Notes: generated by a model from the sequence alone, not told the origin. 64,000 bases of DNA from Chitinophagales bacterium (GCA_025056305.1 JANWWJ010000022.1:62001-126000), one strand, 5' to 3'. Positions 14,841 to 47,064 are shown, numbered from the stretch's first letter. A program made the numbers and translations.

Positions 14841-15594
14841 GCACGGAAACCTGTTTTAGATCGTTGGCGATCAGCTCAAAAACACGCTGACGCAAAGCGG
14901 AAACTTCACTTACCGTAAGCCCTTTGGTTTCTATCGGTTCGTGCACAATAACACGCGTACGCCCCGGCTGCCCTTCGATTCGGAATCCGTTTACCTGAAG
15001 AAGCCGCCAGTTATCGAGCATGGTCAAAGGTACAATGGGAATCTGCTTTTCAATGGCCAATCGGAAAGGTCCTGTCTTGAAAGGGACCAGGCGGGGGGCC
15101 TGCGGACTGATGCGGCCTTCCGGAAATACTACCAAATTCATGCCCTGTTCTACACTGCGCAGTCCTTCCTGATAACTCTGAAATGATTCCCACGCATTGT
15201 CGCGATCAACCGATATGTCAACAGTACGAAAGAAGATGTTGAGCAGCGGAATTTTCTTGAGTTCGGCCTTCGCCATAAAGCGCCACGAGGGTCCAGCTAC
15301 CAGCGCAGTGACGGGAATGTCTAAGTAAGAAAAATGATTGGCACAAAACACATAAGGCCGGCTGCGATCCAAACGGCAGCGGTAGGTGATTACGGGAATA
15401 ATGCCGGTAAATAAAAACAACAGGCGGGCCCACAGTTGCCGCAGCCGGTTGGCGACCCCATATCCCCGGGGATTACGCAGCAAAACCACAAATGCCGGAT
15501 ACAACAAAAGAAATATAAGAGAAAAAATTATAAAATAATACCATGCCCACAGGGTGCGGGCTGCTTTTTTGCACTTGCATTTAAACTTCTTCAC
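14833..15594 (-). CDS. PlsC-like 1-acylglycerol-3-phosphate acyltransferase
   Basis: Transfers an acyl chain to lysophosphatidic acid in phospholipid synthesis at the inner membrane. I use the GTG giving '[12 protein letters not shown]'; a TTG nine bases upstream is the alternative. The N-terminus holds a membrane segment (about residues 20-40). The acyltransferase blocks are '[11 protein letters not shown]' (the HX4D motif), '[18 protein letters not shown]' and 'VVFPEGRIS' (substrate phosphate binding), then 'IPIVPLTM'. About 253 residues, usual size. Its start lies just after the small conserved gene and its stop overlaps the ABC ATPase start, so the three are likely cotranscribed. A second PlsC-type gene sits in the carotenoid locus. 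Confidence 0.92.
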
Positions 15595-29120: not shown

Positions 29121-31538
29121 CTAATAACTTATGACTACTCCGATCGAAGGCAGAATGGTGCCAACAGTGTTGGATACAAATACCGGCACGTAATAGCCAG
29201 GATTTTGCTCATCGGCTACTGGCTGACCGTTTTCATCCCGCAGCACATCTAAATAATCCGGTAAGCGAATTTTCAAATTGTATGCATTCTGAACATCTAA
29301 GTATAGCTCGAAACTCCACGAGGGGAAAAACCATTTTTTATCAATCCGAAAGTCTAATTGGTGAAAAGATTGTGTGCGTAAGGCATTTACTTGGTCATAG
29401 TCCGGAACACCCCGGCCATTAACGTTCCATACAGGTATTGACACAGACAACAGGGTATCGACCGGCGTGAACGGAATACCTCCGTTAAATCGCCATTTGA
29501 TGCCTATTTCCCAATTTTTGGTGAACCGCTTGCCCGCGGTTAGCGATACCAGAAGCTGATTGTCCCAGGAAGATGGAACCAGCAGGCCATTGCGGTCAGA
29601 AAACAAGCTGCGATATACGGTTACGGCTGCAATACCATAAAAACCTTTATATAATTTTTGCTGTGCCAATAGCTCCAGGCCATAAGCTTTCCCCGTGCTG
29701 GTGCTTACAGCCGGGCCGTTGCCAATTACCCCAAAATCGCTCCCCAAGTTGGCCAGGGAAACCGAATCCCGAAGCATGAACGGATAGTGGTCATACCTTT
29801 TTGAAAAAATTTCCATAGATAAACGGCTGTTGAAGTCGGTGTAGTATTCCACCCCTCCAGCGAGTTGAGTGCTGCCGATGTAGCGCACCTGATTAGCCCG
29901 ATTGACCAGTTTGCCCTGGTCATCTCGGTAACCCAGCACCGTGTAGGGAGGCAGCTGATAATACCGGCCCACACTAAAATTCACATTGGTCTTTGCGCTT
30001 AGGTTGACTGTTGCGGCCAGTCGGGGGGACAATTGTTGCCACGGCTTGTTTGTGGAAGGACCATAGCTGCTAAAATCACTGCGCAAACCTGCGGTGAGCA
30101 CCAAACGCCGATCAAACCAGGCCTCAGAGGCAGAAACAAAAAAACCGTATTTGCTGAATCCTAATTTCCCTTCATAATTGATTTCGATAATATTTCCGGA
30201 AAGGTCGTTGATGCGATTAAAAGTGCTGTTGTAATAACTGACCCATTCATACGCCAAGCCTGCATTGAGTTTCAAGCTGCCGCGGTATTGATTGAATTCC
30301 ACGCGAGCTTTGTTTTCGGCTTCGTAGGAACGGTATTGCAGAAGCAGGTTGTCGCTATTTTTTTCATTATTCCGGTATTTAATGGCTTCGTTGTTCAACA
30401 TGTTGCGGCTGAGAACGGCCGTGATGCCTTCGTTTTTTCCAAAATACTTATACACCAAACCAACAGTGTAGTTCCACTGATTGTTTTCAGGCAAATATCC
30501 CAGGATGTATCGCTGCTCTGGCGTTTCATTGGTTTGCAGATTAAGGCGGTTTACATCATAAGCGCCAAGCGAAATAAGACGCAGCTGACTTTTTTTATTC
30601 AGGCGCCATGAGGTTTTTAACTGATAATCGTTATACGTAGGCAAGAAAGGCAACGCTAAAGCAGCAAACAGAAACTGCAGATACGAGCGACGTACGGAAA
30701 ACAATAAACCCGAATTCGGGCTGAGCGGACCTTCCAAGGTAAAGCCGAGATCAGAGCTGCCGAGAGTCGCCGTCACCCCAAAGCGGTCGGTGCGGGCCTC
30801 GCGTTGCCGCAACAGCAAAATTGAGCTTAAGGCCGGGCCTTTGCCGGCCGGAAATGCACCACTGTAAAATTCCGCATCCGAAAGAAAGTCCACGTTAATT
30901 AACCCAACAGGCCCACCGCTGCTGCCTTGCGTGCTGAAATGATTGATGTTGGGCACTTCCACTTCATCCAGATAAAATCGGTTTTCATTTGGCGCACCTC
31001 CGCGAATGATCAAATCGTTTCGAAAACTCACCGTCCAGGCCACACCGGGCAAGCTTTGCAGCACTTTGGAAATATCTCGATTTCCTCCGGGGTTACGTTG
31101 AATTTCACTGCGCCCTATGGTGCGGAGCGATACGGGACTTTCGTCCGATTTGTCGAATCGATCGCTTTTCACCACCACCGCTTCCAATTCTGTAGCCAAT
31201 CGCTCCAGCTTAATCTCCAGCTCACTGGGAGCCGACGTCATCACCTCCACTTCAAATACCGTCTTAGACTTATAGCCGACCGAGCTGACATCGAGGTTGT
31301 ACAATCCGGGCGGCAGCCTCTGTAAAACAAACCTGCCGGCCGAGTCGGTCACTGCACCTACGACCGTGCCCTGTACCCCTACGGTAGCATAGGCAATAGC
31401 TTCGTTGGTTACTGCATCGCGCACCCAACCGACGATGCGACCCGTCTGGGCGTGAGCCTGCCCCACCGACCAAAGCAACAAAAGGAGAAAGACGTTTGCC
31501 CCCCTCTTGTATGTTTTACCGGCATTTATTTGAATCAT
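29121..31538 (-). CDS. TonB-dependent receptor with N-terminal carboxypeptidase-like domain
   Basis: 805 residues. Signal peptide to 'AHAQ' (residue 31), then a carboxypeptidase-regulatory-like domain of about 80 residues ('GRIVGWVRDAVTNEAIAYATV', 'GLYNLDVSSVGYK'), a plug domain with 'SLPGVAW', 'LIIRGGAPNENRFYLDEVEV', and a beta barrel up to the final 'IGVVISY'. No SusD partner gene follows, so it is not a typical SusCD pair. The barrel resembles the shorter receptors used for siderophores, vitamins or similar small ligands. It lies 38 bases downstream of the crtW stop on the same strand and could be the last gene of the carotenoid transcription unit; the ligand is unknown. Confidence 0.93.
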   Translation of the reverse strand: MIQINAGKTYKRGANVFLLLLLWSVGQAHAQTGRIVGWVRDAVTNEAIAYATVGVQGTVVGAVTDSAGRFVLQRLPPGLYNLDVSSVGYKSKTVFEVEVMTSAPSELEIKLERLATELEAVVVKSDRFDKSDESPVSLRTIGRSEIQRNPGGNRDISKVLQSLPGVAWTVSFRNDLIIRGGAPNENRFYLDEVEVPNINHFSTQGSSGGPVGLINVDFLSDAEFYSGAFPAGKGPALSSILLLRQREARTDRFGVTATLGSSDLGFTLEGPLSPNSGLLFSVRRSYLQFLFAALALPFLPTYNDYQLKTSWRLNKKSQLRLISLGAYDVNRLNLQTNETPEQRYILGYLPENNQWNYTVGLVYKYFGKNEGITAVLSRNMLNNEAIKYRNNEKNSDNLLLQYRSYEAENKARVEFNQYRGSLKLNAGLAYEWVSYYNSTFNRINDLSGNIIEINYEGKLGFSKYGFFVSASEAWFDRRLVLTAGLRSDFSSYGPSTNKPWQQLSPRLAATVNLSAKTNVNFSVGRYYQLPPYTVLGYRDDQGKLVNRANQVRYIGSTQLAGGVEYYTDFNSRLSMEIFSKRYDHYPFMLRDSVSLANLGSDFGVIGNGPAVSTSTGKAYGLELLAQQKLYKGFYGIAAVTVYRSLFSDRNGLLVPSSWDNQLLVSLTAGKRFTKNWEIGIKWRFNGGIPFTPVDTLLSVSIPVWNVNGRGVPDYDQVNALRTQSFHQLDFRIDKKWFFPSWSFELYLDVQNAYNLKIRLPDYLDVLRDENGQPVADEQNPGYYVPVFVSNTVGTILPSIGVVISY

Positions 31539-31576
31539 GGCTTCAAAAGCATTTGATTAAGGCCATAAAAACACGG

Positions 31577-32314
31577 CTATATGGGAATCGGCAACTTGCC
31601 TTTTACGCGATACAACTTCCACCACGGAACATGCGGCAATTCATGATGCTCGTAGTGATATCCAAAAAAATAACATGTAAGAAATGCCCATAGATGATTT
31701 TTAGTTAATGAACCTGATCGATGGCGATTGGCGGCCGGAAAAGTTCCCTTGTGCGGCACGTATGTTCCGAAATAAAATAGCTGCAAAGTGCTCAGCAAAG
31801 CCGGCAGCATCCAAAACAATACCACGTTGATTTTCGGAAACAGCAAAGACAGTCCGTTAAAGGTGAGGGCCATGAGTACCAACTGTGGCCACGTAATGTA
31901 TTGGCGTAAAAAGAGTACATACCATTTCATAAAAGAACCTTGATGCACATCTGGATCATCCGAAGTGCCTACATGGCGATGATGCCGGTGATGATTGCGG
32001 TAAAGCCGCGGCCAGAAATTGAACGCAAACAAGGTGGCGGCCACCCACCCGATTAAAGTGTTGACCTGACGACAAGGAGCAACGGTACCGTGCATGGCAT
32101 CATGGGCCGTGATAAACAAGCCGGTGTACAGGTGCGTCTGCAGCAACACAGCAGGGATGAGCCACCACCTCATGCCGCTTACGGGGGCTTGCAACAAGGT
32201 GCCCAACGTCAGCCCCCAAAGCAAAATGATGACCAACGCAATAATTAAGCCCCACCAGGAGGGCAATAAATCGCTGCTTGTCGTGCCGTTTCCTTTCAAC
32301 GCTTGCCTAACCAT
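31577..32314 (-). CDS. crtW: Beta-carotene ketolase, CrtW type
   Basis: 245 residues from the ATG; an in-frame TTG nine bases upstream is less likely. A membrane di-iron oxygenase that adds a 4-keto group to the beta ring of carotenoids. Histidine boxes are 'HDAMHG', 'NHHRHHRHVGTSDDPD' and 'YHYEHHELPHVPWW', with 'FYFGTYVPHKG' between, all as in CrtW and distinct from the shorter CrtZ hydroxylases. Four to five membrane helices. The gene overlaps the lycopene cyclase stop by 19 bases, supporting cotranslation. Confidence 0.93.
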   Translation of the reverse strand: MVRQALKGNGTTSSDLLPSWWGLIIALVIILLWGLTLGTLLQAPVSGMRWWLIPAVLLQTHLYTGLFITAHDAMHGTVAPCRQVNTLIGWVAATLFAFNFWPRLYRNHHRHHRHVGTSDDPDVHQGSFMKWYVLFLRQYITWPQLVLMALTFNGLSLLFPKINVVLFWMLPALLSTLQLFYFGTYVPHKGTFPAANRHRSGSLTKNHLWAFLTCYFFGYHYEHHELPHVPWWKLYRVKGKLPIPI

Positions 32315-32967
32315 TCGTAACAAAGAATATTAAAAATGAGCAACAAGCCACTGTAGGCCAGATCTTCAACCGGAATGGTACCCAACCGCAGCCCGCTGTT
32401 AAAGGCATCGTTGTAAATGACTACCGGCAAGGCGGTGAGTAAACCGTTGATTAGGGCAAAAGGGACTAAGTGGATTAAATAGGTGAGCACCAAAACGCCG
32501 TTGCGGGGATATCGGGTCAGGGCCAACACCAACAACAGGGGTGCCAAAGCACCGCAACAGATTGCAGTGTACAGTTTGGGTCTTCCTACAGCGACAGCCA
32601 CCAAAAGACTCGCACCCACCATGAAAATGAATGGCGTTGCTATCTGGAGTTTCACGGCCTGTGCAAAAAATTTCTTGATGTTTTCATAAAGAAACAAGCA
32701 TGCAAATGGAATACTGATAAAGAACATTATTTCCTCAAGAGGTAACCCTTTCCATGTGATTCCTAAGGTATAGTCAGAATTAAACTGCCAAACGCCGATA
32801 GCCGTGAACCAAACATCCCACAACAAGAAAGGAACTGCAACTAATAGATTTGCTGTCAGGGCCCTGAGCCAGTGCCGAAAAAACCGTAGTTGAGGCTCAA
32901 AACTAAATGCTATTGGCACGGCCACGACGGCAATGTTGATGGCTAAATAGGAAAAGCGTTCATTCAT
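32296..32967 (-). CDS. crtYcd: Lycopene cyclase, fused CrtYc-CrtYd type
   Basis: 223 residues from the ATG giving 'MNERFSYLAINI'; the longer upstream frame lies within the neighbour and is rejected. Two related integral-membrane halves are fused: the first carries 'FLLWDVWFTAIGVW', 'YTLGITWKGLPLEEIMFF' and the second 'LGTIPVEDLAYS'. Each half has the P-x-E-[ED] element needed for cyclisation. This is the Bacteroidota form of the heterodimeric cyclase of actinobacteria. It closes one or both ends of lycopene to beta rings. The start overlaps the upstream 172-aa gene by eight bases. Confidence 0.92.
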   Translation of the reverse strand: MNERFSYLAINIAVVAVPIAFSFEPQLRFFRHWLRALTANLLVAVPFLLWDVWFTAIGVWQFNSDYTLGITWKGLPLEEIMFFISIPFACLFLYENIKKFFAQAVKLQIATPFIFMVGASLLVAVAVGRPKLYTAICCGALAPLLLVLALTRYPRNGVLVLTYLIHLVPFALINGLLTALPVVIYNDAFNSGLRLGTIPVEDLAYSGLLLIFNILCYEWLGKR

Positions 32968-33478
32968 CTTTGCCGAGTAGGTTCTGGAGCAGACGCTGTT
33001 CTGCGGGCGTACAGCGACCACTTTCCAACAAAAATTGAATGATGTTTTTTCTTAAAATCTTGTCGTTAGCAGGCTGGCCACTCATGAGGGCACGGATGAT
33101 TTCGCGGCGATCTTCTTCGAGGTGCTTGCTCAATCCAAGCCACTGTGGCACGTAATGCTCCATACTGAAGCGCAGAAAACGAATCTCCGCATTTGAGGGT
33201 TCTTTCTCAATGGCTTTCTTCATGGTTTGAGCACTGCGCTGCACGTATTCCCATTTCACCCAAGGATTCCAGGCATCGCGGGCTACGAGAGCTTCGGCGG
33301 CTCCGACATAGGCGAGCTCCAGTGGCCGACCAGTGGCATACCGCTGCAGCCACACAAGAAAGGCATGGGCGTCTTCTTGGCCCTGAAGCACAGCTCCGTA
33401 ACGGGCACGCAGGAGGTGCAGCGGAATGCTGTCCGAGGCTCCACAAGCAAAAACGATATACATCAAAAGCACATTCAT
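32960..33478 (-). CDS. Protein of unknown function between crtB and the lycopene cyclase gene
   Basis: 172 residues. The first 14 residues, 'MNVLLMYIVFACGA', could be a short signal peptide or anchor, so export is possible but not sure. The rest is helical: 'YATGRPLELAYVGAAEALVARDAWNPWVKWEYVQRSAQTM' (shown in part), 'NAEIRFLRFSMEHYVP' and 'LLQNLLGKDE'. No cofactor motif. Its stop overlaps the cyclase start and its start lies three bases after the crtB stop, so it is embedded tightly in the carotenoid unit. I do not know a function; an accessory or localising role in carotenoid synthesis is a guess from position only. Confidence 0.72.
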   Translation of the reverse strand: MNVLLMYIVFACGASDSIPLHLLRARYGAVLQGQEDAHAFLVWLQRYATGRPLELAYVGAAEALVARDAWNPWVKWEYVQRSAQTMKKAIEKEPSNAEIRFLRFSMEHYVPQWLGLSKHLEEDRREIIRALMSGQPANDKILRKNIIQFLLESGRCTPAEQRLLQNLLGKDE

Positions 33479-33481
33479 ACG

Positions 33482-34318
33482 TCAAATCATTCCCAATGCT
33501 GTGCGAACATAGACTTGAGCCAGCAACCATAACTTATGTCCGTTGTTAATGCGGATGCGCTGCTCACGTACCTGCTGAGGCGAACTGTTTCGGATCTTGT
33601 TGAGCAGACGGCGGAAATAACAATACGCCAAATAAACTCCTTGCCGCGATTGCTTGGGCAGGCGGCGGATGCCCTCGAGGGCCTCGTCAAAATCTTTTTC
33701 TATGTCGGCCACAATAGCATCCAGCTCCCGACGGGAAAAGGTTTCGAACGCTATGCCCGGAAAGTAAATACGCCCACGTTCTTCAAAATCGCTTTTGAGA
33801 TCACGCAAAAAGTTCACCTTCTGAAAGGCAGCTCCTAGCTTACGTGCTGACGTAGAGAGTTCGTTATACAACTGATTGTTTCCATGACAGAAAACTTTCA
33901 AGCACATCAACCCAACCACTTCCGCAGAACCAAAGATGTATTTTGAAAAACTTTCCGGATTGTGTGTTTTGCGTGCCAGGTCCATACGCATGCTTTCGAA
34001 AAATGCCGTAACCAGGTCGCGGTCTATAGCATAACAACGGACCGTATGCTGAAACGATTGCAAGACGGGATTTACCGAAATGCCTCGGTCCAAAGCCTGA
34101 TAAGTAGCCGTTTCGAGTTCATCCAGGAGCTGAGCCTGATTGATTTCGGGAAACGTATCCACAATCTCATCGGCCAGGCGTACCAGCCCATAGATGCTGT
34201 AGATGGGATCGCGTAACTGCGGATGCAAAGCACAAATCCCCCATGTAAATGAGGTACTGTACAGCCGGGTGATGGCTCGGCTGCTTTGCAAGGCAGCCTG
34301 GTTATAGAGATCGCGCAT
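33482..34318 (-). CDS. crtB: Phytoene synthase
   Basis: 278 residues from the ATG giving 'MRDLYNQAALQ'; an in-frame TTG three codons upstream is rejected. Condenses two geranylgeranyl diphosphates to phytoene. The two Asp-rich substrate-binding motifs are 'DEIVD' (with 'YGLVRLADEIVD') and 'LRDLKSDFEERGRIYFP', and 'STSFTWGICAL' is the start of the first helix block. No CrtE/IspA homologue is in the window. The gene overlaps the crtI stop by 17 bases, so the two are coupled. Confidence 0.95.
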   Translation of the reverse strand: MRDLYNQAALQSSRAITRLYSTSFTWGICALHPQLRDPIYSIYGLVRLADEIVDTFPEINQAQLLDELETATYQALDRGISVNPVLQSFQHTVRCYAIDRDLVTAFFESMRMDLARKTHNPESFSKYIFGSAEVVGLMCLKVFCHGNNQLYNELSTSARKLGAAFQKVNFLRDLKSDFEERGRIYFPGIAFETFSRRELDAIVADIEKDFDEALEGIRRLPKQSRQGVYLAYCYFRRLLNKIRNSSPQQVREQRIRINNGHKLWLLAQVYVRTALGMI

Positions 34319-35777
34319 AGCTTTCAATGCGTTGTAGAACTAATTGTGAACTGATTAACACCATGGGCAGGCCTGTGCCGGGAACAGTGCTGGCACCGAC
34401 ATAAAACACATTTTTTAATTGCTCATCATAATTAGCCGGTCGCAAGGCTCCAACCTGCATTAAACCATGCCCTAAGCCCAGTCCGCTGCCTCGGTACAGG
34501 TTGAACTGTTGCTCCCAATCCTTGGGCGTGTACACCGTACAAGTCAACAGTTGCTTGCGAATAGGGAAATCGCAGCGGCGCGATAGGTCGTCAAGAATCA
34601 AATCGGCAAATTGCTGTGCATCGCTCCAGTCACTTTTATAACGTAAGTCCGGTACGGGGCATAATACAAACAGATTTTCACAGTTTGGTGGCGCACAATC
34701 CGGATTGTTTTTACTGCTCACGTTCACATAGTAGTATGGTTGTGCGGGGAGTTGCCTGTTCTGGAACAAACGTTTTGCGTAATTGCGAAAATCGGTACCA
34801 AGGAAATAGTTGTGTTGCTGCAGCACCTGAATACGTCCCCTAACACCTAAATACATGGTAAACGGTGCCAAGGTCCATTGCATTCGATCCAAAGTCTGTT
34901 GCCGATAGCGATGCCGCTTAAAGACCAAACCGCGAAATGCCGCTGCATCGCCGTTGATCACAAACACATCAGCCGACCATCGATGCCCTTGGTGATCCAC
35001 CAGCGCTTGCAGACGTCCGTTGTGAGCTTCGGCCGCCACGATTTCACGATCAAAATGCAGGGCCACCCCCTTTTGCTGCAACAGATCAACCATAGCCTCT
35101 ACAATACGATACATGCCTCCACGTACATTCCAATAACCATCGTGCTGCAACTCTACGTAATTGAGGAGCGCATAGACAGCCGGGGTACGGAATGGCGGAG
35201 CACCGAGAAAGAACGATACCAGGGAAAATACGGCCTTAGCTTCTTCACTTTCAAAATGCCGTTCTAAATGAGTCCACATGCTGCACAAGAGTTTGGGCAG
35301 ATGTTTTAGGGGAACGCTGCTGAGGGCTTTGAGATAGTCCGCGATGGAATCAAAATTTCTTTTGACGATCCGCCACTCCGTGTCTTCAAAAATCTGGCGC
35401 GACGTATGCAAAAAATCATTCAGTTTCCTAGAGAAGTCTGGCTCTATTGCGGCAAAGGAATTAGTGAGCTTATTGCGATCTCTCCAGATGAGTAAAGGTT
35501 CGGGACGGTGATCAAAAAACACAGCATAGAGCGGATCTAATGGTTCTATAGAAAAGGGCAAGGGCAGCTCCAGCTTTTCAAAAAAGCTGCGGAACTCATA
35601 GCTCATGCTAAAAAACGAAGGGCCTACGTCAAACACGAAGCCATTGCGTTCCAGCCGATTTAAACGCCCGCCGGCAGTCGAATGCTTTTCTACCATCTCC
35701 ACTTCCCAACCCTGATGGGCTAATTGCAGGGCTGTGGCCAATCCGCCCAAACCTGTACCGACGACCAATGCCTTCAC
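34302..35777 (-). CDS. crtI: Phytoene desaturase (lycopene-forming)
   Basis: 491 residues using the GTG giving 'MKALVVGTGLGGLATALQLA', which fits the CrtI start; a TTG or GTG ten residues upstream is possible. FAD-binding N-terminus with 'GTGLGG' and 'VEKHSTAGGR', and the family C-terminus 'GAQ/GAST'-type 'VGASTVPGTGLPMVL'. It takes phytoene through four desaturations to lycopene. The middle region 'DVGPSFFSM' is the substrate-pocket mark. Directly downstream of the ECF sigma gene on the same strand with a gap of about 40 bases. Confidence 0.95.
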   Translation of the reverse strand: MKALVVGTGLGGLATALQLAHQGWEVEMVEKHSTAGGRLNRLERNGFVFDVGPSFFSMSYEFRSFFEKLELPLPFSIEPLDPLYAVFFDHRPEPLLIWRDRNKLTNSFAAIEPDFSRKLNDFLHTSRQIFEDTEWRIVKRNFDSIADYLKALSSVPLKHLPKLLCSMWTHLERHFESEEAKAVFSLVSFFLGAPPFRTPAVYALLNYVELQHDGYWNVRGGMYRIVEAMVDLLQQKGVALHFDREIVAAEAHNGRLQALVDHQGHRWSADVFVINGDAAAFRGLVFKRHRYRQQTLDRMQWTLAPFTMYLGVRGRIQVLQQHNYFLGTDFRNYAKRLFQNRQLPAQPYYYVNVSSKNNPDCAPPNCENLFVLCPVPDLRYKSDWSDAQQFADLILDDLSRRCDFPIRKQLLTCTVYTPKDWEQQFNLYRGSGLGLGHGLMQVGALRPANYDEQLKNVFYVGASTVPGTGLPMVLISSQLVLQRIESYARSL

Positions 35778-35818
35778 AGCGAAAAGAGCTTTGGGATGGT
35801 CCACCAAATGGCCATGGG

Positions 35819-36391
35819 CTATCTCGGTTGTGTTTGATCTGTTTCAGTCAACGACATACGCATATTTGCAGGACGTGGCTGAAGAGGTGCCGAAAAAACT
35901 TCGGAAGCTGCACTCCATGGCTTAAGGATTTTCCGAGCTGCAAAAAGTCTGCTTTTTACCGTTCCCTCCGGTATGCAAAGAAATCGTGCAATTTCTTTGT
36001 ACCGATAACCCTGAGCATACAGATCAACGACTTTTCTTAAGCCTCGTGGTAACATATTAAGAACTTTTTTATAATCTGTGAAAAAAATTTTAGTATCTGT
36101 TTCATTCGATGCTAAAGATGGGGCATGGGGCCAAAACGACATTTCGTGTTGGTTTTTCCATTGCTGCCATCGCTGAAATCTGCGCCATTCATTTACATAA
36201 TGATTTTTCATAATCGTTCTCAACCAAGGAAAAATATTTTCACTACTCCAACCCGTCGGCTTTGCCTTCCATGCCCGGTACAGGGTTTCCTGCACCAGGT
36301 CTTTTGCTTCATCGGCATTCTTGGTTAGCGCCATCGCATAACGAAATAGCCGGACCAAGGCCCGTGCAGGAAAGTCTTTGCAAGGCAACAT
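35819..36391 (-). CDS. ECF-type RNA polymerase sigma factor
   Basis: 190 residues. Region 2 spans about residues 10-75 with 'AKDLVQETLYRAW' (-10 recognition), and region 4 spans about 105-155 with helix-turn-helix 'YKEIARFLCIPEGTVKSRLF'. It is followed by an extra 34-residue tail (157-190) rich in Pro, Ser and Thr. No anti-sigma gene sits beside it: the next gene is crtI. The gene stands between the MerR/B12 regulator and crtI, so it probably activates the downstream carotenoid genes, like CarQ in Myxococcus (an analogy only). A good TAnnTTTG promoter lies 21 bases upstream. Confidence 0.93.
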   Translation of the reverse strand: MLPCKDFPARALVRLFRYAMALTKNADEAKDLVQETLYRAWKAKPTGWSSENIFPWLRTIMKNHYVNEWRRFQRWQQWKNQHEMSFWPHAPSLASNETDTKIFFTDYKKVLNMLPRGLRKVVDLYAQGYRYKEIARFLCIPEGTVKSRLFAARKILKPWSAASEVFSAPLQPRPANMRMSLTETDQTQPR

Positions 36392-36412
36392 TAGTGTTTA
36401 ATTTTCTAATTT

Positions 36413-36420
36413 CAAAGTTA
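36413..36420 (-). promoter_or_regulatory. Promoter -7 box TAACTTTG for the ECF sigma gene
   Basis: Exact TAnnTTTG with TTG (36440-36442) 19 bases upstream, the best spacing in the window. It lies 21 bases before the ATG of the sigma gene and the direct repeat at 36418-36429 overlaps its upstream edge by three bases. Confidence 0.6.
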
Positions 36421-36429
36421 AACAATAAT
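36418..36429 (+). repeat. Copy 1 of a 12-bp direct repeat upstream of the ECF sigma gene
   Basis: TTAAACAATAAT, identical to the copy at 36551-36562. This copy overlaps the -7 box of the sigma promoter. In a 187-base AT-rich gap the match could partly reflect base composition. Confidence 0.6.
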
Positions 36430-36550
36430 TTGCTGAATACAACCTGAGAGGTGGCTGTAATTTGTTTTAAGAATTAATAAATAGCTCATTTTCAGTAGTT
36501 TATGAAATAAACAAAACTGAAGAACTTTGTTAGATATTTTTTCTAAAAAA

Positions 36551-36562
36551 TTAAACAATAAT
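36551..36562 (+). repeat. Copy 2 of a 12-bp direct repeat upstream of the ECF sigma gene
   Basis: TTAAACAATAAT, 121 bases from copy 1 and 15 bases beyond the stop of the MerR/B12 regulator. The two copies together could be an operator for the neighbouring regulator. Confidence 0.6.
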
Positions 36563-36577
36563 GCATCTTGAATCGAG

Positions 36578-37468
36578 CTATGTCGCTAGCTGACTTAGAA
36601 ACATCTTGAGTTGCTCGCGCGAGGAAAAATACTTGAAGTTTTGGGGTAGTTTCAGGCTGCGGCTAAACATGAGCCTTAAGCCACCAACAAACAGTATCCT
36701 TCCCTTGAAAATCTCTTGAAGTTCTGAAATATATGCTTGCAACCGACGCTCTGAAGGTTTGCTGGTTATGATGCAAATTCCATATTCCGGCTGAAAAACT
36801 TGACAAGCCTCACGAAGGTCTTCAAGCGGTACATTTTGACCTAAATACAACGTTTTCCTTTGTTGACGGACCAACAGGTAATGGGCATATAGCAGGCTCA
36901 GTTCATGCAGCTCTTCTTCCGGCAAGAACAACACAACCTTGGGATCCTGTGGAATGATGTCAGCCATAACTCGATCGATGGCAACCGTGATCTTTTGACG
37001 AATCAGGTGTGAAATCATATGCTCTTGTGCAACATTGATCGAGCCCGTTTGCCACATTACGCCTATACGTTCTAAAAAAGGAAAGACCACATTGTCCATG
37101 GCCGCATCAAATCCCAGCTGCGCGATAATGGTTTCCAACAGCCGGTGAAAGGCGCGCTGATCGAAATCCACCATTGCTTGCATTAGGGCATGAATCTGAG
37201 CCGGACTGCTGAAGTCGTGCGTGACCAGTTGAGCCACCAGCTGCTGTATTTCAGAGGCAGGCATTGAAGCCAAGCGCGAAATGCGATAGCCACGACGCTG
37301 CAATAAAGCGATGTTGAGTAAGTGCTTCAGCTCCTTGTCGGAATAGCGCCGGATGTTGGTTCTGGTGCGTGAGGGACGCAGTAGCCCATAGCGATGTTCC
37401 CACATCCTGATGGTATGCGCCTTGATCCCACTAAGGCTTTCTAAATCTCGAATGTGGTAGCTGCCCAT
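36578..37468 (-). CDS. MerR-family regulator with B12-binding domain (CarH/LitR type)
   Basis: 296 residues in three parts. Residues 1-70 are a MerR winged-helix domain ('HTIRMWEHRYGLLRP', 'NIRRYSDKEL'). Residues 80-165 form the helical cap with the W-x9-EH signature exactly: Trp139, nine residues, Glu149-His150. Residues 177-296 are a B12-binding Rossmann fold with Glu186-x-His188-x-x-Ser191 (E-x-H-x-x-S where E/D-x-H-x-x-G is usual) and 'VGGLRLM'. In CarH, adenosylcobalamin bound through a histidine here controls a repressor tetramer that light breaks. So a B12-dependent light sensor for the carotenoid genes is strongly suggested by sequence and place, but not shown. Confidence 0.88.
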   Translation of the reverse strand: MGSYHIRDLESLSGIKAHTIRMWEHRYGLLRPSRTRTNIRRYSDKELKHLLNIALLQRRGYRISRLASMPASEIQQLVAQLVTHDFSSPAQIHALMQAMVDFDQRAFHRLLETIIAQLGFDAAMDNVVFPFLERIGVMWQTGSINVAQEHMISHLIRQKITVAIDRVMADIIPQDPKVVLFLPEEELHELSLLYAHYLLVRQQRKTLYLGQNVPLEDLREACQVFQPEYGICIITSKPSERRLQAYISELQEIFKGRILFVGGLRLMFSRSLKLPQNFKYFSSREQLKMFLSQLAT

Positions 37469-37672
37469 GTGCTTGTCTTAAAAACAACCTGCACAAAACT
37501 TTTCTATGCTGTAAAGAAAAGGCCCCTTGCATTGCACGCCGACTCCTTCAAAAGCGTTGTCTTGCCCGTTTTGAAAATTTCTCACACAAAAAGGCATAGC
37601 CTGATCCCACGTACGGCACGATTCAGACTGCATTTAATAAAACAGTCCAACAGAAGAAATGGTTCGGAACGG

Positions 37673-38305
37673 TTAAAAAATATTTAAGGCCGAAAACAGA
37701 AGGGCGTGAGCAGCAGCAATCCAAAGAGCCAGCGGATTCAGAGGTCGTAAGCGAAAATGGAAAAAAGGCAACAACAACAAATAGGAAATGTAAAACCATG
37801 CAACATAGTTCTGCAAAGGGGGGTGGCCGGTCTGCCAATACCACCAGCCCAATTCTGTGGCCACCGGTTCGAGCAGCAAGTCCATGGCAACCATTAGGGC
37901 TGCCCCGCTCAAAGTCCGCCAAGGCGGCTGAATTTTCAAGGCCTCCACCACCATACCGCAGCAATAGATCAACATCAGCCAGTTAACTCCAATCAATAGC
38001 GGTACCCCCGCCAACTTTATACCCAGGTGTTCTCCGTAGCGATACACGCCGAATATGACCCCTGTCCTCACCCCTACCCACTCAATAATCCATGTAATAA
38101 CCAGCACGCCCAAGGCGTAAAGCCAATACGTTCGCGTCCATGGATGGTGAAAGGAAAACAGCAACGTCGCTGTACCCACCAAGCTCAAGGCCACCAGAGG
38201 AGCGAACACCTCAGGACGAAAAATCAATCCAAGGATACCGATTGCGTAGTAAATCACGACCAACAGGCGTGCTGCAGTAATCAGGCGATGGATCTTCCTT
38301 TCCAT
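37673..38305 (-). CDS. cruF: CruF-type carotenoid 1',2'-hydratase
   Basis: 210 residues, about seven membrane helices, of the DUF422/CruF family. CruF adds water across the 1',2' double bond at the open end of gamma-carotene (or lycopene) to give a tertiary 1'-hydroxyl. Marks are 'WIIEWVGVRTGVIFGVYRYGEHLG', 'GVPLLIGVNWLML' and 'MDLLLEPVATELGWWYW', rich in conserved Glu, Trp and Tyr. Its start overlaps the GT2 gene by 25 bases. The MerR/B12 regulator begins 205 bases downstream, a stretch in which I saw no gene. Confidence 0.92.
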   Translation of the reverse strand: MERKIHRLITAARLLVVIYYAIGILGLIFRPEVFAPLVALSLVGTATLLFSFHHPWTRTYWLYALGVLVITWIIEWVGVRTGVIFGVYRYGEHLGIKLAGVPLLIGVNWLMLIYCCGMVVEALKIQPPWRTLSGAALMVAMDLLLEPVATELGWWYWQTGHPPLQNYVAWFYISYLLLLPFFHFRLRPLNPLALWIAAAHALLFSALNIF

Positions 38306-39360
38306 TGATGCGTCGAAAAGAAATGTTTCCAGAAAGCCAGCCCCGCCACTGCCACGAGGCTAAGCCTTCTCAGCGGCAACAATAACAGCTGCTCCGCAGT
38401 TCTCATGCCGGCAAGGTAGCTGTGAATGACAACTATAAACACCTCTGAGGCAAGCCATAGTAAAGCTGCCGACATTGGTAACCAAGCAGCCCCTGGCAGG
38501 CTAAAAACAACTAAGAGACAATACAGAGCCAAGAAAAAACCATTTCCCGTCATAGCCACAATGTTCTTGGCAAAACCACTAAGTGCTTCCCTGTAACGGG
38601 CATACATACGGCAGCTGATCTGTGGTGACAGCAGCACACTGACGTGGTAACCCATTTTCTTCATACTGCGTGCAATGGTTATATCTTCTGCCAGGCTTTG
38701 CCTGTGCAGCTTATGCCACCAGTTTTGCTTGTACACTTCTGCTGAAAACAACAGGCATTGCCCGTTTGCCGCTGCCACCTGCCACATGCGCGTTCGCCGC
38801 ACCAGAAACAAAGGCAGCAGGCCCAACAAGATTTCAAACATGATGGGAACCGCAATACGTTCACCCCATGAATTCATTTCTTGTCGCGGAAAAACAGAAA
38901 GCAGATGGCTTTTGCTTTGCTGCAATGCTAAAACCATGGCACTGATGGCGCCTGGTTGCAAGCGGACGTCGGCATCTAAGAACAGCAAGTAGTCCCCTTC
39001 AGCCTTTTGCCCTAATTGATGACATGCCCAAGTTTTCCCCAACCATCCCGGGGGCAAGGGCTCACCCTGGATGAGCTTCAGTTTGGGGTTTTGAACTGCA
39101 TACCGCCTGACCACTTCGGCAGTTAGATCGGTGGAATGATCATCCAGCACCCAAGCATCCCGATATTCCAGTTGCGACTGCTGTAGCGCTTCCAACAGAA
39201 GCCCGACTCTGTGCGCCTCGTTGCGTGCCGGAATGAGCACCGACACACTGCTGTGCCTTGGATTTGTGGGACGAAGCTGCGGTGGCCACAGTAAATTCAG
39301 CAACGATATTATCCCCCGAACCACCGCAAACGCCAATCCACTCCAGCCCAGCCACTCCAT
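38281..39360 (-). CDS. Family 2 glycosyltransferase of the carotenoid locus
   Basis: 359 residues with the ATG that forms a TAATG overlap with the acyltransferase stop, a strong reason to prefer it over an ATG 42 bases upstream. A membrane helix near the N-terminus (residues 5-25), then a GT-A domain: 'VSVLIPARNEAHRV', 'WVLDDHSTDLTAEVV', 'DYLLFLDADVRLQPGA' with the DxD motif, and 'QSLAEDITIARSMKKMGY' (the ED element). The C-terminus holds three more helices. Similar GT2 enzymes (CruC in Chlorobi, CrtQ in staphyloxanthin synthesis) glucosylate carotenoids. From its place between cruF and the acyltransferase it probably glycosylates the 1'-hydroxyl. Confidence 0.88.
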   Translation of the reverse strand: MEWLGWSGLAFAVVRGIISLLNLLWPPQLRPTNPRHSSVSVLIPARNEAHRVGLLLEALQQSQLEYRDAWVLDDHSTDLTAEVVRRYAVQNPKLKLIQGEPLPPGWLGKTWACHQLGQKAEGDYLLFLDADVRLQPGAISAMVLALQQSKSHLLSVFPRQEMNSWGERIAVPIMFEILLGLLPLFLVRRTRMWQVAAANGQCLLFSAEVYKQNWWHKLHRQSLAEDITIARSMKKMGYHVSVLLSPQISCRMYARYREALSGFAKNIVAMTGNGFFLALYCLLVVFSLPGAAWLPMSAALLWLASEVFIVVIHSYLAGMRTAEQLLLLPLRRLSLVAVAGLAFWKHFFSTHQWKGRSIA

Positions 39361-39989
39361 TAAAACCGTTTTTGATATTCCAGTTCCACTTGCTGCCTGC
39401 ATTGATCATAGAAATCCTGATATGATTTATTGAGCGAAGCAAAAGATGGGCTTTGCTCATTTACGAGACGAAAGAATGCAAAGGCCTCAGGCCGGGGTTT
39501 GTTGAAATAATGCAGGAATAACGCCGTAAAACAGATCTGGTACTGAGGCTCGGCGTGTTCTAAAATGTACCGGATGCCGCGGCGAAAAGTTATGGCAGCC
39601 GAGCAAGGCGAACTGATGCGGCCTTGGGGAAAGATATGCAACAGATGTTGAGGATTTTGCAGCACCGTAGTAGCATATTCCAGACTGTTGAGTATCGAGC
39701 GGCTTCCCGGTTTTATGGAGAAGGCGCCGGCCTGGCGCACGCCTGGCCGGCGCCTCAATTCGTGCTCCAACATCATCACAAAGTACTTCTTGTGAAAATA
39801 CCGCTGATTGGCGCGAATCACCAGAAACGGATCCCACCAGCTTTGGTGGTTGCTGAGCAACAAAACTGCTCTGTTGGCTATGTTCGGTACATCCAAAAAA
39901 TGAACTGCCTCAAAATGGCGATGCAGCAACCAAGGCACGTACCACCAGCCGAACCATTTCATCCACACCGTGTGCGAAGCCGTGATCAT
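39360..39989 (-). CDS. PlsC-like acyltransferase of the carotenoid locus
   Basis: 209 residues. Acyltransferase block 1 is 'LLSNHQSWWDPFL' (HX4D), block 3 is 'LHIFPQGRISSP' with Gln replacing the usual Glu of FPEG. It is shorter than phospholipid PlsC proteins and has lost the N-terminal membrane helix seen in the other PlsC here. In the Chlorobi pathway CruD acylates the glucose of carotenoid glucosides. It leads the unit AT-GT2-cruF on this strand, so acylation of a carotenoid glycoside is inferred. The identity with CruD is a context guess, not a homology claim. Confidence 0.85.
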   Translation of the reverse strand: MITASHTVWMKWFGWWYVPWLLHRHFEAVHFLDVPNIANRAVLLLSNHQSWWDPFLVIRANQRYFHKKYFVMMLEHELRRRPGVRQAGAFSIKPGSRSILNSLEYATTVLQNPQHLLHIFPQGRISSPCSAAITFRRGIRYILEHAEPQYQICFTALFLHYFNKPRPEAFAFFRLVNEQSPSFASLNKSYQDFYDQCRQQVELEYQKRF

Positions 39990-46053: not shown

Positions 46054-46122
46054 GGCGTTTCGGAATCTTTTGAAAAAAAACACATTGCACACCAAACAAA
46101 CAGTAACTTGCGCTCGATTTGT

Positions 46123-47064
46123 ATGTTATCCGCCGACATTTTTGGAGCTCCGCCCATTACCTTCGATCAAATCCGTTCCATCGACGAGCAAGCTCCGCAA
46201 TTGATTCTGTGGGCAGTCCCGCTGATGATCTTTTTTGCCGTGTTGGAATACCTCGTAGCCCGCTGGCAACACCGCGACGATATTTACGACCACTCGGAAC
46301 TGCGCGGGTCAGTACTCGTTGGTTTGGGCTACTTGCTGAGCAACTACCTGACAAAAATTATTCTTTTTTCTATTACTGTTTTTATTTATAATTTGATCCC
46401 TTGGCGGCAGCATTTCGTATGGTGGCTGTTTTTCCCCTGCTATGTGCTGCATGATTTTTGCAGCTACTGGGCTCACCGCATCTCGCATGAGCAACGCCTG
46501 TGGTGGGCCACACATGTGCCACACCACAGCGCCAATCACTACAACCTGGCCGTGTCGTTTCGCCTCTCATGGATTCAGCAATTGAAAATCCTGTTTTTCA
46601 TTCCGGTAATCGCCGCCGGCTTTCATCCGTTGGTCTTTTTTGTAGTCAACCAAGTAGCCGTACTGTTCCAATACTGGGTGCACACCGAATACATCGGCAA
46701 GCTGCACCCCTGGATTGAGTACATCTTTGCCACCCCATCCAATCATCGCGTTCACCACGGGTCGCAGAAAAAGTATTTGGACAAAAATTTCGGAGCTACC
46801 TTCATCATTTGGGACCGCCTGTTTGGCACCTACATGGCTGAACAGGATCGCCCTGTGTACGGACTGACAACGCCAATCCACTCTTCCAACCCTTTTTATC
46901 TCGTTTTTCATGAATTGATTGAGCTGATGAAAGACTTGCAGTCGGCCCCGTCGTGGCGGCACCGGCTTTGGTTTTTGTTCGGCAGTCCCATAACCATTGC
47001 GCGTTATAAAAAAATTCAGCAAATACAACAGAAACGACAAGCCCAAAGCAACCCTATGGGCTGA
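46123..47064 (+). CDS. Sterol desaturase/fatty acid hydroxylase family membrane protein
   Basis: 313 residues from the ATG; an upstream TTG is rejected. Four to five membrane helices and the di-iron histidine boxes 'HDFCSYWAHRISH', 'HVPHHSANHYN' and 'NHRVHHGSQKKYLDKNFG'. The family oxidises lipids or sterols; related Bacteroidota proteins are often annotated only as sterol desaturase. It is too long and has the wrong layout to be a CrtZ carotenoid hydroxylase. A short AT-rich leader precedes it; smc follows after about 90 bases. Confidence 0.92.
   Translation: MLSADIFGAPPITFDQIRSIDEQAPQLILWAVPLMIFFAVLEYLVARWQHRDDIYDHSELRGSVLVGLGYLLSNYLTKIILFSITVFIYNLIPWRQHFVWWLFFPCYVLHDFCSYWAHRISHEQRLWWATHVPHHSANHYNLAVSFRLSWIQQLKILFFIPVIAAGFHPLVFFVVNQVAVLFQYWVHTEYIGKLHPWIEYIFATPSNHRVHHGSQKKYLDKNFGATFIIWDRLFGTYMAEQDRPVYGLTTPIHSSNPFYLVFHELIELMKDLQSAPSWRHRLWFLFGSPITIARYKKIQQIQQKRQAQSNPMG

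Follow-up and report, generated by a model that had tools for sequence, protein, structure and literature searches.

A Chitinophagales carotenoid cluster that probably makes a salinixanthin-type pigment under light control, with a candidate CarH operator and a conserved TPR-like companion gene

The window analyzed here is a 64,000-nt stretch of DNA from an uncultured Chitinophagales bacterium (GCA_025056305.1 JANWWJ010000022.1:62001-126000), and its minus strand carries eleven open reading frames (ORFs) that run from position 39989 down to 29121. In the order of transcription, they encode a PlsC-like acyltransferase, a GT2 glycosyltransferase, CruF, a MerR/CarH-like regulator, an ECF sigma factor, CrtI, CrtB, a 172-aa protein, CrtYcd, CrtW, and a TonB-dependent receptor. 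ORF calls and family searches agree on this point with an earlier, sequence-only reading of the DNA, all eleven same-strand genes being present as it described them. Neighboring ORFs mostly overlap or lie less than 40 bp apart, with the exception of 204 bp before the MerR/CarH gene and 186 bp before the ECF sigma gene. Owing to these two wide gaps, the genes are probably transcribed in three blocks, namely PlsC-GT2-CruF, CarH, and the stretch from the ECF sigma factor to the receptor.

Gene identities were assigned by profile searches against Pfam and NCBIfam, with bit scores set against the family cut-offs. The C40 core (CrtB, CrtI, and a lycopene cyclase) is present in full. The phytoene desaturase CrtI (34302-35807) reaches 361.6 bits to TIGR02734 (cut-off 238.1), the phytoene synthase CrtB (33482-34327) 147 bits to PF00494 (cut-off 26), and the cyclase CrtYcd (32296-33021) 111 bits to PF18916 and 100.5 bits to TIGR03462 (cut-off 39.4). 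Both cyclase profiles match in two stretches, and it follows from the double TIGR03462 match that the cyclase is fused. CruF, the carotenoid 1',2'-hydratase (37673-38305), scores 91.7 bits to PF04240 (cut-off 25) and 65.3 bits to TIGR03460; homologs occur in 13 of the 16 genomes of the family. The 4-ketolase required in a salinixanthin-type cluster is supplied by the beta-ring ketolase CrtW (31577-32323), which has the expected histidine boxes (HDAMHG, HHRHHRH, and HYEHH) and finds its best NCBIfam match in NF045690 with 231.5 bits, under the curated cut-off of 350. Since CrtW, CruF, the GT2 enzyme, and a CrtD homolog discussed below all stay under their NCBIfam equivalog cut-offs, their substrate specificity is not assured. 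The remaining members of the last block are the ECF sigma factor (35819-36391; PF04542 and PF08281), the 172-aa protein, and, as the last gene, the TonB-dependent receptor (29121-31538; PF13715 and PF07715).

Synteny of the cluster is seen in three genera. A genus mate (G008, a Chitinophagales MAG; contig JANWXQ010000011.1) has all eleven genes in identical order. In G006, which belongs to another genus of the same family, the order is kept, but crtW is absent from the cluster; a CrtZ-like gene separates CruF from CarH, a PrsW-like gene separates the ECF sigma gene from CrtI, and a CrtD gene lies upstream. G001, also of this family, has the CarH-ECF-CrtI-CrtB-172aa-CrtYcd core and CruF, with no adjacent GT2 or PlsC. 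The receptor at the operon end is syntenic in two other genomes, and Pedobacter sp. Leaf170 (L073) and a Paludibacter MAG (L120) carry homologs of it in the neighborhood of crt genes. In G006 and G001, the gene that separates the ECF sigma gene from crtI (L037:11997-12707 and L041:9323-10015) encodes a PrsW-like intramembrane protease; it is absent in the window, and G003 and G004 have an ORF of the same size after the ECF sigma gene. In Bacillus, PrsW cleaves an anti-sigma factor, and relatives of the window genome may have a sigma-release route via such a protease.

We consider it probable, at about two chances in three, that the locus directs the light-inducible synthesis of a red carotenoid of the salinixanthin type, closely resembling the Salinibacter pigment. 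This reading builds on gene content, synteny, family assignments, the CarH motifs, and conservation of the operator; the catalytic steps, their regiochemistry, and the nature of the sugar and acyl groups are predicted from these. CrtB and CrtI would yield lycopene, after which CrtYcd would form a beta ring at one end and CrtW would add a keto group to that ring. The other end would be hydrated by CruF, and CrtD, encoded elsewhere in the genome, would add a 3',4' double bond to give a deoxyflexixanthin-like aglycone. Finally, the GT2 enzyme would place a sugar on the 1'-hydroxyl, and the PlsC-like enzyme would esterify that sugar with a fatty acid. That the route leads to a keto-carotenoid whose tertiary 1'-hydroxyl carries a fatty-acylated sugar had already been proposed from the sequence, and this finds support in the family assignments, the grouping of GT2 and PlsC, and the genomic CrtD. 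CrtYcd might also cyclize both lycopene ends; CrtY of Nonlabens on its own yielded mostly beta-carotene and depended on CruF for a monocyclic product (PMC11855829).

Some steps of this route are encoded outside the cluster. The sequence-only reading had reported crtD and crtE as absent and proposed searching the genome for them and for crtZ. The absence is correct for the window and does not hold for the genome, where a CrtD homolog and two polyprenyl diphosphate synthases (PF00348) lie on other contigs. The former is a second CrtI-family gene (contig C12:8349-9824) whose best family is CrtD, 1-hydroxycarotenoid 3,4-desaturase, with 472.9 bits to NF042421, slightly under the cut-off of 500; of the synthases, one is nearest the short-chain/GGPP type and one the octaprenyl type. 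No CrtZ was found: nothing in the genome matched the CrtZ-like protein of G006 in a search run without a positive control, and the genome's three FA_hydroxylase genes were rejected as candidates, having no carotenoid-hydroxylase match and in two cases being nearest OlsE. Within the window, positions 46108-47064 encode an FA_hydroxylase-family protein that is nearest the ornithine lipid hydroxylase OlsE and falls far under the OlsE cut-off. Salinixanthin carries a 4-keto group, no 3-hydroxyl, a 1'-O-acylglucosyl group, and a 3',4'-didehydro bond. As this structure has no 3-hydroxyl and no CrtZ was found, the predicted gene set fits salinixanthin and not flexixanthin, with its 3-hydroxylated ring. 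By homology, it is complete for a salinixanthin-type pigment (4-keto, 1'-O-acylglycosyl, and 3',4'-didehydro).

The CrtD homolog is unlinked from the cluster, and if it had another job or were not coexpressed, the product would lack the 3',4' double bond and be an acyl glycoside of 4-keto-1'-hydroxy-gamma-carotene. The gene's position on a different contig, where the genes around it have no crt matches, and its score just under the equivalog cut-off would suit such a product, as does the fact that Chloroflexus makes 1'-OH-gamma-carotene glucoside esters (PMC4155588). Nonetheless, we judge this outcome rather unlikely, given that a CrtD relative scoring 595.9 bits to NF042421 lies near the crt cluster of G006 and that many distant clusters among the 80 best GT2 loci introduced below have a CrtD relative next to CruF.

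For the salinixanthin-type product, the sugar and acyl steps would fall to the first two genes. The GT2 enzyme (38281-39402) is CruC/CruG-like and a predicted carotenoid 1'-O-glycosyltransferase, with 63.6 bits to PF00535 (cut-off 23.3) and CruG (NF045692, 129 bits) as its best NCBIfam match. The PlsC-family acyltransferase (39360-39989), CruD-like by role and predicted to act on carotenoid glycosides, has 42.6 bits to PF01553 (cut-off 23) and the HX4D motif HQSWWD. One may suspect that both are envelope-lipid enzymes lying beside carotenoid genes by chance and that the pigment is a plain keto-carotenoid, a suspicion fed by HpnB being the second-best NCBIfam family for GT2 and by NCBIfam giving no carotenoid assignment above cut-off. 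Against it stands a scan of a GT2 alignment over 84,980 species genomes, from which the best 80 loci were chosen by GT2 sequence alone, ignoring neighbors, and fetched with up to 10 kb on each side. CruF, CrtI, CrtB, CrtD, or the same PlsC family occurs within the fetched stretch in 77 of these 80. Among them, PlsC is directly upstream of GT2 in most Bacteroidota loci and the PlsC-GT2-CruF association recurs across Bacteroidota, while the Chloroflexota loci combine GT2 with CrtD and weak CruF matches (28-62 bits); no Salinibacter locus was among the best 80. The genome's own other candidates are also remote: against the locus GT2, its other GT2 proteins reach no more than 33 bits, compared with at least 194 bits for carotenoid-linked GT2s, and against the locus PlsC, its only other PF01553 gene (about 15019-15372 in the window) scores 5 bits, compared with 76-316 bits for acyltransferases adjacent to carotenoid GT2s. 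Genomic context and score gaps thus support placing GT2 and PlsC in carotenoid rather than envelope lineages, the opposite of the phylogenetic grouping that the earlier reading had named as fatal to its sugar and acyl steps. A chance neighborhood of envelope enzymes appears improbable.

Carotenoid GT2s are rare in the order, being found in 6 of the 199 genomes sampled. Further afield, CrtB-CruF-PlsC-GT2-CrtI clusters were observed in Bacteroidales (L076, L078, L117 (Porphyromonas), L120 (Paludibacter), L056, L060, L090, and L100), and CrtYcd was not detected in the fetched Porphyromonas loci. These clusters are predicted to yield an acyl-glycosylated carotenoid. Bacteroidales is a mostly anaerobic order, and we know of no carotenoid production in the hosts of these clusters.

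What the salinixanthin-type pigment would be used for is best approached through rhodopsin. No rhodopsin (PF01036) was found in the genome, which is 99.5% complete, or in the genus mate, and the same search was positive in 34 of the 199 sampled genomes from the order, G001 among them. In this set, carotenoid GT2 and rhodopsin show no co-occurrence (one of six genomes with GT2 against 33 of 193 without; Fisher p=1). The only genome with both is G083, from another family (L159 and L160), in which GT2 lies next to CrtI and rhodopsin lies elsewhere, beside the retinal-forming dioxygenase Blh. A Blh search (PF15461) gave no match in the 16 genomes of the family, but as it had no positive control it shows little. 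Rhodothermus marinus is a salinixanthin producer whose genome gave no rhodopsin in homology searches (PMC5822342). Because no rhodopsin was found here either, photoprotection or membrane stabilization/reinforcement is a likelier role than that of a rhodopsin antenna. A role for the product as antenna pigment of a proton pump resembling xanthorhodopsin, at which the sequence-only reading had hinted, draws on the aglycone class shared with salinixanthin and on the rhodopsins of G001 and G083 (where GT2 and CrtI are adjacent), but is highly improbable in view of these searches, the distribution across the order, and the R. marinus precedent.

Light control of the salinixanthin-type cluster would center on the CarH/LitR-type MerR regulator (36578-37468; best match NF052513, 112.6 bits), a predicted light sensor with a B12-binding domain. 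In common with CarH of Thermus and Myxococcus, it has a MerR DNA-binding domain, a B12 domain, and the Wx9EH (139-150, W139 to H150) and ExH (186-188) motifs, both of which are kept in all eight homologs. Wx9EH makes the adenosyl contact and ExH provides the lower axial ligand (PMC9304148). Of the classic B12 motif D/ExHx2G/P-Sx(T/V)-GG, this CarH has ExH and GG; S takes the G/P position (ELHELS), and no SxT/V was found at the expected distance. For these two reasons, B12 binding is likely rather than certain.

Between the CarH and ECF sigma genes, just upstream of the latter, lies the 30-bp palindrome TGTTTAATTTTCTAATTTCAAAGTTAAACA (36395-36424), a candidate operator and the only exact TGTTTA-N18-TAAACA in the window; allowing one mismatch, the window has two matches against 0.16 expected. 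The palindrome overlaps a TAnnTTTG promoter box and, in the gene direction, contains TAACTTTG, a box of the Bacteroidota -7 type. We infer that CarH is the protein that binds the palindrome. In the dark, CarH with adenosylcobalamin would occupy it at the ECF-crtI promoter and repress transcription, whereas light would destroy the cofactor and release CarH. The myxobacterial CarH site consists of tandem direct repeats (PMC9304148), whereas the candidate operator here is an inverted repeat with an 18-bp spacer. An operator made up of direct TGTTTA repeats alone was considered and rejected; what is conserved is a fixed 24-bp offset between inverted half-sites. A text match to the motif in PMC11217422 proved to be a cloning primer only.

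The spacing was assessed by comparing spacings of 6 to 40 in 1.96 Mb of loci that had been retrieved with other aims. A spacing of 18 occurs 21 times, any other at most 4 times, and all others together 20 times; these are not independent events, as related lineages share some sites, and the matches come from several families. For 18 of the 21 sites, automatic assignment (with 60 bp allowed for a misplaced start codon) places an ECF, crt, or rhodopsin gene no more than 300 bp downstream. In the motif-independent subset, comprising loci fetched by rhodopsin or 172-aa matches, a spacing of 18 occurs seven times and others at most twice. The exact palindrome is present in six of the eight loci with a CarH homolog and missing from two, and it also occurs without a CarH homolog in the fetched stretch (L224, L225, L091, L102, and L103). 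In G063 and G027, from other families of the order, palindromes lie about 100-140 bp upstream of rhodopsin matches (L213:5768-5797 and L221:4834-4863), hinting at light control shared with crt genes. The palindrome between the CarH and ECF genes, recurring before carotenoid genes across Bacteroidota, was absent from the sequence-only reading and looks new.

The same holds for the 172-aa gene (32960-33478), whose TPR-like family, usually found beside crtB, also looks new. The protein belongs to no family in Pfam or NCBIfam, yet 171 of 395 Bacteroidia genomes match a profile built from six members. Of the 29 best-scoring loci outside the window, 24 adjoin crt genes, mostly as crtB-172aa-crtYcd. 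The AlphaFold model is an all-helical repeat (mean pLDDT 86.8) with a low-confidence, hydrophobic N-terminal segment. One of the six members matches TPR_11 (E 6e-4), the best Foldseek hit of the model is a TPR protein (E 0.033), and VIA gives Z 10-12 to many helical repeats; these fold searches return generic TPR-like solenoids only. Two binders of hydrophobic ligands, the haemophore HusA (6bqs) and a bacterial sterol transporter (7t1s), appear in the fold lists without standing out. As modeled, the protein is probably TPR-like in general architecture and exported or membrane-anchored, and the model speaks against a DNA-binding protein. In Chryseobacterium lacus, the crt operon is light-induced, and a hypothetical gene beside crtB is upregulated in light and was suspected to be a light regulator (PMC7064467). 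That gene has the position of the 172-aa family, its identity being inferred from position only, and the suspected role differs from that of the probably exported, TPR-like protein modeled here. The order crtI-crtB-hyp-crtZ-crtYcd was seen in L178, L185, and L190.

Tentatively, and with somewhat less than even confidence, we propose a twofold extension of these observations: TTGTTTAA-N16-TTAAACAA (in its strict form TGTTTA-N18-TAAACA) would mark a Bacteroidota-wide, CarH-run light regulon joining carotenoid operons, through their ECF sigma genes, with some rhodopsin genes, and the 172-aa TPR-like exported protein would be an unrecognized core element of carotenoid operons in Bacteroidota that perhaps deals with the pigment beyond the inner membrane.

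Carotenoid glucoside ester genes are known from Chloroflexus (PMC4155588) and, as cruC and cruD, from Chlorobaculum. The locus has the cruF, cruC, and cruD roles in common with these; its cyclase and ketolase differ, and its genes are clustered with CarH and an ECF sigma factor. With the salinixanthin pathway of Salinibacter ruber and R. marinus (PMC5822342), the cluster shares crtB, crtI, a lycopene cyclase, a 4-ketolase, a CruC-type glycosyltransferase, and a CruD-type acyltransferase, and the predicted pigment class is the same. Unlike in R. marinus, the ketolase is CrtW rather than CrtO, the cyclase is CrtYcd, and GT2 lies within the operon. The Echinicola rpoE-crtI-crtB-crtY cluster (PMC8683446) has MerR, rpoE, the crtI-crtB-cyclase core, and CrtW in common with the locus, and the Nonlabens cluster (PMC11855829) MerR, the same core, CruF, and CrtD; free carotenoids (astaxanthin and myxol) were reported from these two, and sugar or acyl genes were not.

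The candidate gene set found here for a salinixanthin-type pigment is largely complete and covers the CruF (in the cluster) and CrtD (in the genome) steps that were not identified in R. marinus (PMC5822342); in the genome that carries it, the pigment apparently does not act as a rhodopsin antenna. The pathway as such is already of a known kind, and it is the operator and the 172-aa family that deserve further attention. The latter is a conserved gene without annotation that many Bacteroidia genomes carry in their carotenoid operons, and the palindrome provides a concrete, testable hypothesis for the light switching of Bacteroidota carotenoids.
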